Below, piece after piece: positions 58,408 through 63,250 of a stretch of 64,000 nt of DNA (the stretch's first letter is position 1; the number at the start of each line of letters is the position of its first letter). This stretch comes from Luteolibacter sp. LG18 (lineage in GTDB: Bacteria; Verrucomicrobiota; Verrucomicrobiia; Verrucomicrobiales; Akkermansiaceae), in the NCBI RefSeq assembly GCF_036322585.1, contig NZ_AP024600.1, positions 2,356,001 through 2,420,000 on the forward strand, written 5' to 3'. The notes under the pieces are model-generated. The model made no database searches and was not told the origin of the DNA. It saw nothing but the letters and a program-made list of their open reading frames with translations. Position numbers and translations under genes: made by a program.

Positions 58408-60828
58408 TTACCAGGCGCGGTCGCCGCGTTCGTCGTAGGGCAGCCAGAGCAGGGCGATGGCCTGGACCTTGATGTCGGTCTTGCCGGGTTTGAGCGACTT
58501 GGTTTCCAGCGCCAGCCCCTCCGGAGTGAAGCTCTGGTCGAGGGCGGCGATCTGGTCGGTGATGGACTGGTTGATCGCGTCGATCTCGGACTGGATGCCT
58601 TCGACCTTGGTCTCGGCATTGGTCACATCCTGGTGCTGCTTGTAGGCACCGGTGGCCTTGCCGAAGGCGGAGGTGCCGGTGCGGGTCAGGCCGCTGATGC
58701 CGCTCTTCCGTCCGAGCACGGCCCCGAGGATACCGCCGAGCACGGACACCCCGGCTTGCATGACGGCGGACTGGGACTCGGCCTTCTGCTTTGCGAGCTG
58801 GCCTTCGGCGGTGGTCTTCTTGCTCTCCAGCGAGGCGATCTTCTTCGCGGCATCCTGGCGGATCTTTTCCACGGCGGCATCGCGGGCCTCACGGCCTTCG
58901 TGGGCGAGGCGCTGGCGGAAGTCGGCTTCGGCCTCGCCGGGTTTCGAAATGCCCTCGGGCGACCCGCAGGTGAAGATGTCGAGGCGTTCGTTGCGGTAGA
59001 GTTCGTCGGCGAAGTCCTTCTCGACCTGCTTGTAGTTCGCCGCGTTCATCGCGTAGCCGGGTAGCGGCGCGAAGCCGATGCCGGGCGCGGGATCGCCGCC
59101 GAGGTTTTCCGGCTTCAAGGGCGGCGGCAGCGGGGTGGGCGAGGGGCCCTTGTCGGTGAGTTCATTGAGCCGCCGCACCGAGCGGGCGAAGTCGCCTTCC
59201 TTGGTGGTGAAATGGACCGCGCCGACCTTGAGCAGGTTGGGGCGGTAAACCATACCGTCCTCGTCGCGGGATGCGGGCGCGAATTTCTCGTCCACACCGA
59301 CGCCGACCGCGGGGCGGCTGCCCGCGGCATCGGCGGCCGGGCGGGGCGCGGCCATCGGATTGTCCGATACGGTTTCGGCGGCCCCGCCGGCGGCGAACTC
59401 ACCGCGTTTCGGATCCATCAGCGTCTTGATCTGCGCCCGGGTCAGCGGGCCGGTGAGGTAGCTCATCGCCCAGCGGACCTGGAGCAGCACGGGGTGGTCC
59501 TCGTGGACGTTGTTCATCAGGAACACGCGGTTGCCGAGGGACGAGAGGAGCTTCTCCATCTCGTCGCGGTCGAACTTCGCGTTCTGCGAGCCCGCGGCTC
59601 CTTCCAGTCCATCGAGCACGCGGAGCTTGTCGCGCTCCGTTTGCAGGCGGCCGAGGAACCAGGTGCCGATGTTGGAGAGCGCCTTGTAGTCGAGGTCGAC
59701 CGGGTTCTGGGTGGCGAGCAGGCAGCCCAGACCGAAGGCGCGGCCTTGCTTGAGCAGGGTCATCAGCGGCTTCTTCGACGGCGGGTTTGCGGTCGGCGGC
59801 AGGTAGCCGTAGATCTCATCCATGTAGAGCAGCGCGCGCAGCGAGGTGGTGCCGTTCTGGGTGCGCATCCAGGCGAGCGTCTGGTTGAGCAGCAGGCTGA
59901 CGAAGAACATGCGCTCGGCATCGCCGAGGTGGGCGATGGAGAAGATCGAGAGGCGCGGCTTGCCGCTGTCCGTGCGAAGCATCTGCCCGATGTCGAGCGG
60001 CGGGCCCTCGAGCCACGAGGCGAAGCCGGGCGAGGCGACGAGGTTGTTGAATTTCAACGCGAGCGCCTGGCGGGTCTTCTGCGGATAGAACGATTCGAGG
60101 TCGATCACGCCGACCTTGTCGAAGCCGGGTTTCTGGACCAGCGCGATGAGGCCCTCGAGGGTGACATTGCGGCCGTTCTTCCACTCGTTCTGGAAAATGG
60201 CGGCGAGGAGCACGGCTTCCGGGCTCTGGATCGGATCGGCATCGATGCCGACCAGCGAGAGCAGCGAGAGCACGGTGCTCTCCACGCGTTCACCGTAGAT
60301 CTCGGAGTCTTCGAGCACTTCCTCGGACGGGGCCTCCAGCGAGGCGAGGATGGAAACGGGGATGCCGGCCTTGCTGCCGGGGGTGAAGAGGGTGATGTCG
60401 ACCTTGTCGCGGAGCTGCTGGATGCGCTCCGGAGTCTGGCCCCAGTCGGCGAGGCCCTTCCTCCACATCTCCGCGGTCTGGGCGGCGAACTCATCCGGAG
60501 TCACGCCCTTCTTCGCGGCGTCGTCCTCGTTGATCCACGGGCGGAAATCCTCCGGCGCGAGGTTCGGGAACGTCAGCAGGAGGTTGGAGATGTCGCCCTT
60601 CGGATCGATGATGATGGCGGGGATGTTGTCCATCGCGGCCTCCTCGATGGCGGCGAGACAAAGGCCGGTCTTGCCGGAGCCGGTCATGCCGAGGACCACG
60701 CCGTGGGTGACGAGATCCTTCGAATCGTAGAGGACGAGGTCGTCCGTGGCTTTCTTGCTGGTCTGGTCGTATTCGCGACCGAGGTAGAACTGTCCGAGTT
60801 TCTCGTAGTCCGCGGAAGAGATGCTCAT
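58408..60828 (-). CDS. HerA/FtsK-type P-loop ATPase with coiled-coil C-terminus
   Basis: An 806-residue protein. The ATPase begins with Walker A GMTGSGKT (residues 47-54), IIIDPKGDISNLLL follows, and the Walker B region is RALLYMDEIYGYLPP near residue 345, then LLKQGRAFGLGCLLATQNPVDLDYKALSNIGTWFLGRLQTERD, a hallmark of the HerA/VirB4/TraG-like pumps. The second half is a Pro-rich linker, a coiled coil (about 630-715, KIRQDAAKKIASLESKKTTAEG) and a Gly-rich segment (VSVLGGILGAVLGRKSG). It may translocate DNA or protein, but the partner nuclease NurA seen with HerA is not present. The start at 60828 (MSISSADYEKLGQ) is the obvious one. Confidence 0.88.
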   Translation of the reverse strand: MSISSADYEKLGQFYLGREYDQTSKKATDDLVLYDSKDLVTHGVVLGMTGSGKTGLCLAAIEEAAMDNIPAIIIDPKGDISNLLLTFPNLAPEDFRPWINEDDAAKKGVTPDEFAAQTAEMWRKGLADWGQTPERIQQLRDKVDITLFTPGSKAGIPVSILASLEAPSEEVLEDSEIYGERVESTVLSLLSLVGIDADPIQSPEAVLLAAIFQNEWKNGRNVTLEGLIALVQKPGFDKVGVIDLESFYPQKTRQALALKFNNLVASPGFASWLEGPPLDIGQMLRTDSGKPRLSIFSIAHLGDAERMFFVSLLLNQTLAWMRTQNGTTSLRALLYMDEIYGYLPPTANPPSKKPLMTLLKQGRAFGLGCLLATQNPVDLDYKALSNIGTWFLGRLQTERDKLRVLDGLEGAAGSQNAKFDRDEMEKLLSSLGNRVFLMNNVHEDHPVLLQVRWAMSYLTGPLTRAQIKTLMDPKRGEFAAGGAAETVSDNPMAAPRPAADAAGSRPAVGVGVDEKFAPASRDEDGMVYRPNLLKVGAVHFTTKEGDFARSVRRLNELTDKGPSPTPLPPPLKPENLGGDPAPGIGFAPLPGYAMNAANYKQVEKDFADELYRNERLDIFTCGSPEGISKPGEAEADFRQRLAHEGREARDAAVEKIRQDAAKKIASLESKKTTAEGQLAKQKAESQSAVMQAGVSVLGGILGAVLGRKSGISGLTRTGTSAFGKATGAYKQHQDVTNAETKVEGIQSEIDAINQSITDQIAALDQSFTPEGLALETKSLKPGKTDIKVQAIALLWLPYDERGDRAW

Positions 60829-60935
60829 GCGGTTTCACTGTGGTGGCTGGAGCCCGATTCTTCCAGTGTGAAGAAGGGGAATGTGGATACTCCTGTGGCT
60901 TGTCGGAGCGGTTCTCCCGGTTAGATTGGGCCGCG

Positions 60936-61301
60936 ATGGCGATTGGGAAATACAGGTTGGCCCGGATGATCCGAGGCAGATGCTTCTTCGCCTTGGTCCG
61001 GCTTTCCATCGAGCCCGCTGGGAGAAACACGATTTCTTTCGCGCGATGTGTGGCGCCGGGCGGGAAGCCGGATCCCGAACCCTATTATGCGGCCGCGGTG
61101 ACTTTTGGAATCCGGAACGCGTTGAGAAAAGTGAATGGCCGCCATCAAGTCGACGTGTTGGAAATCATGACCACCTATGCGGATTCGACTGACGCCGCCG
61201 TTGCGTTCGCGGCCAGCCAAGCGGTGTTCGAGGCATTGGAGCTTCCCGGCGACGCGATGATCCTGGATGTGGAGAGTGTGGAGATCCGCATTCCGATGTA
61301 G
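60936..61301 (+). CDS. Stand-alone EF-G domain-IV-like protein
   Basis: A 121-residue protein that resembles domain IV of elongation factor G over its whole length: FALVRLSIEPAGRNTISFAR aligns with the domain's first strands, EPYYAAAVTFGIRNALRKVNG with the helix and turn, and VDVLEIMTTYADSTDAAVAF AASQAVFEAL with the last helix region, ending in DVESVEIRIPM. No GTPase domain is present. Such isolated domain-IV-like proteins could act as translation-related regulators or have another function; none is proven. The ATG at 60936 fits the domain; the open frame extends upstream to 60840 without similarity. The gene is divergent from the HerA-type gene. Confidence 0.65.
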   Translation: MAIGKYRLARMIRGRCFFALVRLSIEPAGRNTISFARCVAPGGKPDPEPYYAAAVTFGIRNALRKVNGRHQVDVLEIMTTYADSTDAAVAFAASQAVFEALELPGDAMILDVESVEIRIPM

Positions 61302-61354
61302 AACCGGCGGCACCTGCACAGCGTGGTGGAAATCCGGCCTGAACAGTGGTGCCC

Positions 61355-62503
61355 ATGCTTGCCCGCGGCGGGGCGCTCATTACGGTGGCGGGCGTGAGTG
61401 TTTCCGTTCCTGCTTCGCCGCCCCGTGCGTGGGCGGAGGTCGATTTGTCCGCCCTCCGGCACAATCTCGGCGTGGCCCGCGAGGCCTGTGGCTGCCACCT
61501 GATGCCGGTGGTGAAGGCGGGTGCCTACGGTCACGGCTTGGAAGAAGTGGCGCGGGCCCTGGAAGCGGAGGGGATCGAGTTTTTTGGCGTCGCCAATGTC
61601 GGTGAGGCGCGGCGCATCCGCCATGCGGGCGTGAAGACGCGGGTTTATCTGCTGGGTGCGACCTGGGCCGAGGAGCGTGCGGAGATCGTGGCGCAGGATT
61701 GGACGCCGTGTTTGTCCTCGATGGAGGAGGCCCTACATTTCAACGAGCTGGCCGCGGACGCGGGCGTGCGGCTGAAGGTGCACATCTCGGTGGACACCGG
61801 CATGGGCCGCGGCGGCTTCGTGGCGGCGGGTCTGCCCGCGTTGCTGCCGGAGCTCGACACACTGGAGCACCTGGTCATCGAGGGGCTGGGATCGCATCTG
61901 CCATCGGCGGACGAGGACCGGGAGTTCACGTTGAAACAGTTCGCCGTGTTCGAAGGCGTGCTCGGGGAATTGGGCGGCGTGGAGCGTTTCCACTGGCGCC
62001 ATCTTTCCAGCAGCGCGGGGCTGCTCGGCTACGACAACCACGCGTGCAACCTGGTGCGGCCGGGACTGCTGCTCTACGGAGTCTCACCCCTGCCGGAATT
62101 CCAGGACCGCTTGAAGACGGTGATGTCCCTGAAATCCCGCATCACGCTGGTGCGGACATTGCCCGCGGGCCACGGGGTTTCCTACGGCCGCGATTACATC
62201 ACCGACCGGCCGACTCGGGTCGCCACGATCGGGATCGGCTACGGCGACGGCTACACGCGCCATCTCTCCAATCGCGGCACCGAGGTGTGGATCCACGGCC
62301 AGCGTTGTCCGCTGCTCGGGCGTGTGTCGATGGACCAAATCATGGTCGATGTGAGCGCCGTGCCGGAGGCGGCGGAGGGAGATGAGGTCGAGTTGTTCGG
62401 GGCTTACATCCCCGTCGCCGAAATCGCGAAAAAGGCGGGCACCATCCCGTGGGAGATCTTCACCGGCATCACGCCGCGGGTGACGCGGGTGTATCGGGGC
62501 TGA
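61355..62503 (+). CDS. alr: Alanine racemase
   Basis: A 382-residue protein. The PLP lysine is Lys54 in MPVVKAGAYGHG; the RAWAEVDLSALRHNL start, the DTGMGRGGF motif, and the VSYGRDY motif with the second catalytic base (Tyr near residue 277) are typical of the fold-type III racemase, as are IGIGYGDGYTRHLS and VSMDQIMVDVS. It supplies D-alanine for peptidoglycan. Several starts are possible (GTG 61346, ATG 61355, GTG 61394); the GTG at 61394 would give a conventional N-terminus, so the true start is not certain. It is 53 bases after the EF-G-like gene. Confidence 0.95.
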   Translation: MLARGGALITVAGVSVSVPASPPRAWAEVDLSALRHNLGVAREACGCHLMPVVKAGAYGHGLEEVARALEAEGIEFFGVANVGEARRIRHAGVKTRVYLLGATWAEERAEIVAQDWTPCLSSMEEALHFNELAADAGVRLKVHISVDTGMGRGGFVAAGLPALLPELDTLEHLVIEGLGSHLPSADEDREFTLKQFAVFEGVLGELGGVERFHWRHLSSSAGLLGYDNHACNLVRPGLLLYGVSPLPEFQDRLKTVMSLKSRITLVRTLPAGHGVSYGRDYITDRPTRVATIGIGYGDGYTRHLSNRGTEVWIHGQRCPLLGRVSMDQIMVDVSAVPEAAEGDEVELFGAYIPVAEIAKKAGTIPWEIFTGITPRVTRVYRG

Positions 62504-62608: not shown

Positions 62609-63103
62609 TTAGTCCCAGCCGCCGCCGCCACCCTTGTAGCCGCCGCCGCCACCGCCACGGCGATCGCCGTAACCGCCGCCGCCGCCGCCCTTGTAGCCGC
62701 CGCCACCACCGCCACGGCGTTCGCCGTAACCGCCGCCGCCGCCGCCACCCTTGTAGCCACCGCCGCCGCCGCCACCTTTGTAGCCGCCGCCGCCACCACC
62801 TTTGTAGCCACCGCCGCCACCGCCCTTGTAGCCACCGCCGCCACCACCGAAGCCCTTGTTTTCCTTGGGCTCGGAAGCATTCACGCGGAGGGCACGGCCC
62901 TGGAGGTCATAGCCGTTCAGGGCCTCGACAGCTGCTTCGATCTGGCTCTGATCGCCGAGGGTCACGAATGCGAAACCCTTCGAGCGACCGGTTTCACGGT
63001 CGGTGATGATTTTGACCCGATCAACCGGGCCGTACGAGGCGAAGAGACCAGTGATGTCTTCTTCCGTCGCGGTGTAGGGCAGGTTGCCCACGTAGATGTC
63101 CAT
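62609..63103 (-). CDS. RRM RNA-binding protein with glycine-rich tail
   Basis: About 164 residues from the ATG at 63103. The RNA-recognition motif covers residues 1-80: RNP2 IYVGNL (3-8) and RNP1 KGFAFVTL (42-49). The remaining 80 residues are a Gly-rich tail of GGGGGGYKG units with two GDRR/GERR breaks. Such small RRM-Gly proteins are cold-shock or RNA-chaperone-like proteins in cyanobacteria and many other bacteria. The tail DNA (62620-62850) is a direct repeat and prone to length change. A TTG at 63112 is also in frame, but the ATG gives the usual MDIYVGNLPY start. Confidence 0.92.
   Translation of the reverse strand: MDIYVGNLPYTATEEDITGLFASYGPVDRVKIITDRETGRSKGFAFVTLGDQSQIEAAVEALNGYDLQGRALRVNASEPKENKGFGGGGGGYKGGGGGGYKGGGGGGYKGGGGGGGYKGGGGGGGYGERRGGGGGGYKGGGGGGYGDRRGGGGGGYKGGGGGWD
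62618..62852 (-). repeat. Tandem Gly-Gly-Tyr-Lys coding repeats
   Basis: About nine units coding for GGGGGGYKG or GGGGYGxRRG, differing by one or two Gly codons. The variation in unit length suggests slippage. Confidence 0.85.
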
Positions 63104-63250
63104 TTGCTTCAATTCTCAGATTACGCCATCACGCTGAACACTTCCTGAGACCATGGCGTGGGAGACCAGACGAAGCGCGTCCCTACCAGGCAAGCCCGGA
63201 GGACCGCACATGCATAAGCGTGGATGTGTTCGGCTGGCAAGTAATTATTT

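Follow-up and report, generated by a model that had tools for sequence, protein, structure and literature searches.

The window, meaning the whole 64,000-nucleotide stretch of Luteolibacter sp. LG18 DNA that was analysed, carries a 121-codon open reading frame (ORF) between a divergent gene for a HerA/DUF87-like ATPase, whose start region is common to two related genomes (G438 and G002), and alr, the gene for alanine racemase (Table 1). This ORF, from which an earlier note on the DNA had quoted peptides, is present on the forward strand as described there, beginning with ATG, and an alternative GTG start at 60840 would give a product of 153 aa. It is overlapped by an ORF on the other strand and, in another frame of the same strand, by a 103-codon ORF (MWILLWLVGAV...) that served both as a rival reading and as a null control. 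By inference, the true start of alr may lie downstream of 61346. A low-power scan of 60700-61500 (shuffles gave 0.2 and 0.7) found no sigma-70-like promoter or terminator. Beyond alr, an ORF on the reverse strand combines an N-terminus resembling RRM-type RNA-binding domains, named by eye, with a long glycine-rich tail of GYKGGGGGG repeats.

Table 1. Features at and around the ORF, in window coordinates
Feature	Position	Strand	Remark
HerA/DUF87-like ATPase gene	58408..60828	-	divergent neighbour
Insertion relative to the sister genome G438	60868..61303	.	about 436 bp against 11 bp there (pairwise alignment)
Inverted repeat, left arm	60878..60893	+	imperfect; about 10 bp inside the insertion
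Inverted repeat, right arm	61279..61294	-	imperfect; partner of the left arm
Overlapping 103-codon ORF	60881..61192	+	other frame; rival reading and null control
Overlapping ORF on the other strand	60921-61319	-	from the ORF list
ORF under study	60936..61301	+	121 codons; similar to EF-G domain IV and the domain V strand that follows it
First third of the match	60942..61040	+	carries much of the EF-G likeness
Remaining two thirds of the ORF	61041..61298	+	codon-position GC 0.65/0.45/0.71, coding-like
alr (alanine racemase)	61346..62503	+	neighbour
ORF with RRM-like N-terminus	62609-63112	-	glycine-rich tail

The ORF lies within an insertion relative to G438, the nearest relative by alr (90% identity), in which one flank matches at 85% DNA identity (87 bp) and the other at 79% (107 bp). 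By DNA search, the matched flanks are 20 bp apart in G438 and 445 bp apart in the window, and in G002 both flanking genes are present with a short spacer between them. A gain in the LG18 lineage is a simpler reading than a loss. The GC content of the insertion is 0.59, compared with 0.65 for the window. A mobile element was considered and set aside, given that there is no second copy of 60780-61420 in the LG18 genome, no match to the inserted DNA in plasmids or phages, and no target duplication that could be seen by eye at the insertion ends.

Close to these ends lies an imperfect inverted repeat (left arm GGAATGTGGATACTCC), which possibly marks the ends of a small element. In a test made post hoc, 6 of 2000 plain shuffles produced an 11-nt pair in the outer 30 nt of the insertion, and the 16-nt pattern, allowing up to 2 mismatches, occurs twice in the window against a shuffle mean of 0.90. 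Additionally, a stretch inside the ORF (61108-61154) forms a 49-bp DNA match, at 84% and with three gaps, to another place in G438 (L138:993-1040; genome E=4.4e-4; equalled by none of 3000 plain shuffles at this chosen locus), where it sits in the gene of an unrelated alanine-rich protein (NPDRVCEIVKAAIKAT...) with no match at the protein level. The inverted repeat and the 49-bp match could be signs that the insertion is a mosaic, and either may be due to chance; the 49-bp match, if real, would speak against an EF-G origin of the stretch that it covers.

Likeness to domain IV of elongation factor G

The earlier note had read the 121 residues as following the motif order of domain IV of EF-G, and a profile search returned a statistically detectable match to this domain for the single query: the NCBIfam model PRK12740.1-3 aligns residues 6-120 of the ORF with profile positions 472-589 at E=2.8e-4, PRK12740.1-5 matches at E=0.0047, and in pairwise hhalign comparisons the ORF reaches 95.9% and 96.2% with two EF-G alignments of five rows each. 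The order of motifs holds over the whole domain and in register, both for the NCBIfam model PRK12740.1-3 and for the HMMs described below, but the similarity is weak. No further family appears in the NCBIfam result, the remaining EF-G models of that library do not match, and no Pfam model does so at E<=10, EFG_IV (PF03764) included, a model whose matches in the LG18 genome are confined to its two full EF-Gs (L004 and L005; C1:413239-413595 and 2322152-2322511). PHROGs yields a single match at E=0.19, PADLOC none at E<=1, and the PDB sequences only 4yk2 at E=0.65. Identity to EF-G domain IV ranges from 24 to 37% in the alignments, and from 19 to 29% for the rows of the alignment used to guide the structural model.

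With an HMM built from 59 EF-G domains, the ORF scores 28.3 bits; the highest-scoring of 20,000 shuffles has 9.9 bits, and the runner-up among the 799 six-frame stretches of the window (at least 40 codons) has 3.3 bits. This model is selection-biased in that 12 of its 59 domains had been retrieved with the ORF. With the 47 other domains, the score is 14.3 bits, which none of 20,000 shuffles reaches (the best shuffle scores 8.9 in one run and 10.3 in another, of 20,000 each), and 16 of the 47 were reached via EF-Gs that the ORF had found; the set comprises 31 domains retrieved via Pfam EFG_IV, 10 by similarity to L006, and 6 through alignments with such EF-Gs. The best other score, among the window stretches together with 2867 ORFs from other loci, is 8.0 bits, compared with the 28.3 bits of the ORF, and with the 47-domain HMM the best of these 2867 ORFs reaches 5.8 bits, compared with 14.3. 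Both parts of the ORF contribute: when it is split at residue 45, the scores of the first and last parts with the 47-domain HMM are reached by 16 and 12 of 20,000 shuffles, and when it is split at residue 60, by 11 and 12, the corresponding counts for the selection-biased 59-domain HMM being 0 and 0, and 0 and 2. Such shuffle tests, made after the target has been selected, prove little, because for a target chosen after the search with the rival frame the count was likewise 0 of 20,000.

These figures bear directly on the possibility of chance, in which a spurious or unrelated orphan frame of the insertion would resemble EF-G by coincidence, noticed because first a reader and then a library of 19,000 models had been applied to it. 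The NCBIfam E=2.8e-4 counts one query, the window contains 799 six-frame stretches, and by arithmetic about 0.2 chance matches of this size would be expected had all of them been tried; as a sequence likeness, the match therefore exceeds noise for a single protein and is only marginal for the window as a whole. The silence of Pfam and the 49-bp match to an unrelated gene also favour coincidence, against which stand the span of the match over the entire domain, the contribution of both parts, and the wide gap to the best scores of the other loci and the window. Overall, chance is nearly as likely as the reading that we prefer, namely that the ORF is a decaying offshoot of domain IV.

For this preferred descent from domain IV, the borders of the match are informative. 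The match starts at the domain border, and the YRET segment, which in the EF-Gs shown lies just before domain IV, is missing upstream, where the insertion has room for it (about 22 codons); a random EF-G fragment cut at any point was disfavoured because this segment is missing. Much of the likeness lies in the first third (GKY...RGRCFFALVRLSIEPAGRN), and taken alone, the C-terminal 86 residues match nothing in Pfam or NCBIfam at E<=10. In a tree of domain IV, the ORF has a branch length of 3.28, too long to single out a nearest EF-G. As the earlier note had stated, no other EF-G domain is near: the ORF alone among the 799 window stretches scores clearly with the domain-IV HMM, and a full-length EF-G HMM, applied to the six frames of 60400-61700 as the check for a neighbouring GTPase domain, scores positively solely at profile positions 498-621. 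At 121 aa, the protein lacks the GTPase domain and domains II, III, and V of an EF-G.

Coding pattern and competing frames

Over the whole ORF, GC at the three codon positions is 0.57/0.47/0.72. The first third, with 0.39/0.52/0.73, is unlike coding DNA; in the corresponding part of the EF-G comparators, GC1 exceeds GC2 in 12 of 12, and of 3778 33-codon pieces, taken from 27 genes of the window that had first been filtered for a coding pattern, 67 are as extreme by GC1-GC2 and 6 by both measures. In codon usage, the ORF frame is the best of six with a score of -3.5, between the 5th and 25th percentiles of the training frames, on a training set so rough that wrong frames of its genes scored high too. 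On this sequence pattern, the first third of the ORF may not be a normal coding sequence, which lends weight to chance and counts against both a decaying and a working domain IV.

A different explanation for this pattern is a frameshifted gene of another kind, in which the first third would be read in the frame of the 103-codon ORF and the remainder in the ORF frame, which would make the EF-G-like N-terminus an out-of-frame translation. Read from 60881, the first third does have a coding-like GC of 0.72/0.41/0.53. By codon usage over 60881-61040, however, both sense frames are negative (-10.0 for the rival frame and -25.0 for the ORF frame), and the best is an antisense frame at +7.4. The 103-codon ORF has a hydrophobic start (MWILLWLVGAVLPV) directly 3' of a purine-rich GAAGAAGGGGA, within the insertion. 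It belongs to no family and has no credible relative; as a null for the search, it found something at E<=0.05 in 39 of 254 genomes (own included), and the matches listed are short, scattered, often interrupted by stops, and without an evident single gene family, which argues against chance as the source of the EF-G matches. Synonymous recodings of the 60881 frame reach the first-part EF-G score in only 1 (59-domain HMM) and 7 (47-domain HMM) of 20,000 cases, so the likeness is not a by-product of that frame.

Across the junction, the two-frame composite finds a match in G503, to an open frame of 101 aa (E=3.9e-4), and in G510, to the homologue of that frame (0.027), which favours a frameshift. 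This match overlaps a nucleotidyltransferase-like gene, named by eye, and runs into an out-of-frame stretch of it, and it lies near chance because 165 genomes were searched, among which about 0.06 matches as good as that in G503 would be expected by arithmetic. No NCBIfam model matches the composite, and its only Pfam match is insignificant (E=2.3). A frameshifted gene is very improbable. Against a model of its own G503 and G510 targets, the composite scores 18.0 bits, with 0 of 20,000 shuffles reaching this value, so target selection inflates such tests, that of the ORF with its 28.3 bits included.

A small conserved ORF (DEWQEWFRxGPLxRWNESMKLWAQYLAQGGSLDPEPDSQSPF) overlaps the start of a nucleotidyltransferase-like gene at L133:1435-2365 and L135:1486-2347, in two genomes from a different family of the order, and looks like part of a two-gene unit; the small protein of L135 has no Pfam match.

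Relatives, predicted structure, and possible function

The survey of related genomes that the earlier note had proposed brought up neither a conserved copy of the ORF nor a conserved neighbourhood. Searches of 59, 387, 73, 260, and 384 genomes (overlapping sets; E cut-offs of 0.01, 0.01, 1, 0.01, and 0.001, respectively) gave no credible short relative, as did tblastn against phages and plasmids and scans of genome_contigs and viral_contigs, and no conserved stand-alone gene family was found in these genome, phage, plasmid, and contig sets. A small alignment of the ORF with three EF-Gs retrieved one locus from genome_contigs, within an EF-G. In the phylum, 14 of 387 genomes have a match at E<=0.01, own genome included; of the 13 non-self matches, 2 are not EF-G and 11 fall on domain IV of long frames (675-748 aa) that resemble EF-G, 4 of which were classified and all pass the NCBIfam TIGR00484 cut-off. 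In the genus, 35 of 73 genomes (own included) have a match at E<=1, among them weak ones in G033 and G458 in frames that are otherwise also matched as EF-G.

Several matches were examined and rejected. The best non-self match of the genus (E=0.0017) contains an internal stop and was judged to be chance, as were short-frame matches with 37 aligned residues (L003) or four stops in the matched frame (L013) and three that involve stops or unrelated frames (L018, L019, and L021); another match falls in a 404-aa frame that is not EF-G (L010). A low-complexity antisense stretch (L123), likewise judged to be chance, has a single-genome E of 3.1e-4, similar to the E=2.8e-4 of the ORF, and this favours coincidence.

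Searches with the domain itself gave a similar picture. PF03764 matches in 184 of 189 genomes of the order, with short stand-alone domains not visible among the strong matches listed. For plasmids, every annotated row among the 50 of 259 records listed is elongation factor G, and many are unannotated; for phages, the annotated ones among 22 and 38 records are EF-G or Tet, and the others are unannotated under the match. No stand-alone domain IV was seen among these plasmid and phage matches listed, many of whose rows are unannotated. A literature search, whose coverage leaves out most subscription papers, yielded no publication about a free EF-G domain IV. In PMC9025141, ORF170 of phage vB_SmaM_Ps15 is reported as an EFG_IV domain protein without homologues; it resembles the present ORF in its EFG_IV name and in being homologue-free, is a phage gene, and is likened here by description only.

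Structure prediction, which the earlier note had put forward as a check, gave a divided answer. The single-sequence AlphaFold model of the ORF is poor (pLDDT 50.6, pTM 0.43); its elements follow the order strand-strand-strand-helix-strand-helix-strand, an order consistent with domain IV extended by the first strand of domain V. Foldseek found nothing for this model at E<=0.001, and its best neighbours listed are permuted S6 proteins with Z up to 6.1 and no EF-G, an absence that is no evidence for a different fold. With seven EF-G rows added, the guided model improves to a pLDDT of 57.3 and a pTM of 0.56, and it superposes best on the EF-G structure 1elo (Z 12.2, rmsd 2.4, 104 residues) and also on Thermus 1wdt (Z 10.7), with all 50 neighbours listed being EF-G-type factors, as judged from title or from size and range; this result is partly circular, the alignment being made of EF-Gs. 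EF-Gs are thus listed as neighbours of the guided model, itself of low confidence, and not of the unguided one, whose poor quality also counts in favour of a chance likeness.

Compared with domain IV of EF-G (PF03764), the ORF shares the motif order, the length, and the continuation into the first strand of domain V. It differs in standing alone without a GTPase and in residues that the alignment locates: one glycine of the GG in loop 1 is retained, the tip position has no histidine, and ILDV occupies the site at which most EF-G rows reaching that far show LLEP. The GG loop and the tip histidine have roles in EF-G, the histidine being important. The tip histidine is likewise missing from several EF-G paralogues of that alignment, and the PDB entry 1fnm is titled EF-G H573A.

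A working, free-standing domain IV, acquired recently and acting as a small ligand of the ribosomal A site or of some other partner, is unlikely. In its favour are the frame that stays intact over 121 codons despite extreme divergence, the domain-precise start, the superposition of the guided model on EF-G domain IV, and the phage protein mentioned in PMC9025141. Speaking against it are the lack of any credible short relative in the sets searched, the low-power scan without promoter or terminator, the poor codon usage, the missing tip histidine and loop glycine, and the low pLDDT of a model guided by EF-Gs. The suggestion of the earlier note that a free domain of this kind could bind the A site or mimic tRNA found no support, the ORF being an orphan in a lineage-specific insertion without a conserved neighbourhood, short of tip residues, and with a first third that looks non-coding in its frame; this claim is unsupported at present under every reading weighed. 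Its most specific form, a recently gained GTPase-free domain IV acting as a small A-site ligand or EF-G decoy, is very improbable, and if true would represent a pared-down gene for a tRNA mimic, derived from a translational GTPase.

The explanation that we prefer, with a probability of about 0.4, is that the ORF is a laterally acquired, eroding offshoot of EF-G domain IV without translocase function. In the LG18 lineage, about 436 bp of foreign or rearranged DNA would have entered the space between alr and the HerA-like ATPase gene, and the orphan ORF that it carries would be a very remote descendant of domain IV of an EF-G-type factor. This ORF would have retained the hydrophobic pattern of the fold while losing parts of the decoding-centre tip, with no GTPase, and would most likely be an eroding gene or gene fragment with no present ribosomal role; if translated, it might form at most a small domain-IV-like fold, unable to drive translocation. 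Homology, lateral origin, decay, and lack of function are inferences here, whereas the ORF, the insertion against G438, the weak whole-domain similarity, the missing tip residues, and the lack of relatives in the sets searched are observations. This account is consistent with the NCBIfam matches over residues 6-120, the 47-domain HMM score above all 20,000 shuffles, the two ORF parts that each beat most shuffles, the predominance of EF-G domain IV among the phylum matches (11 of 13), the start at the domain border, the empty site in G438 and short spacer in G002, the lower GC, and the long branch. It is opposed by the silent EFG_IV model and the remaining NCBIfam models of EF-G that miss the ORF, the C-terminal residues that match nothing alone, the rare codon pattern of the first third, the poor single-sequence model, the rival-frame target that also gave 0 of 20,000, and the possible mosaic suggested by the 49-bp match. 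Its weight was slightly lowered, and that of chance slightly raised, because of this 49-bp match and the 16 of 47 control domains linked to the ORF. Remote descent from domain IV, whether decaying or working, has a probability of a little over one half, with chance and a frameshifted gene sharing the remainder.

As it stands, the case serves mainly as a caution: when an orphan frame shows a whole-domain likeness of E~3e-4, relatives are required before any function is put forward. If the ORF is real and expressed, it would represent a domain IV living apart from the EF-G motor, in which ribosome binding could be tested in isolation. PMC3150367 and PMC4342817 distinguish the EF-G paralogue subfamilies EFG I, EFG II, spdEFG1, and spdEFG2, and describe an altered loop I of domain IV in EFG II. 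The number of EF-G copies also varies in the genus, in which eight members listed (own included) have two to four domain-IV matches.
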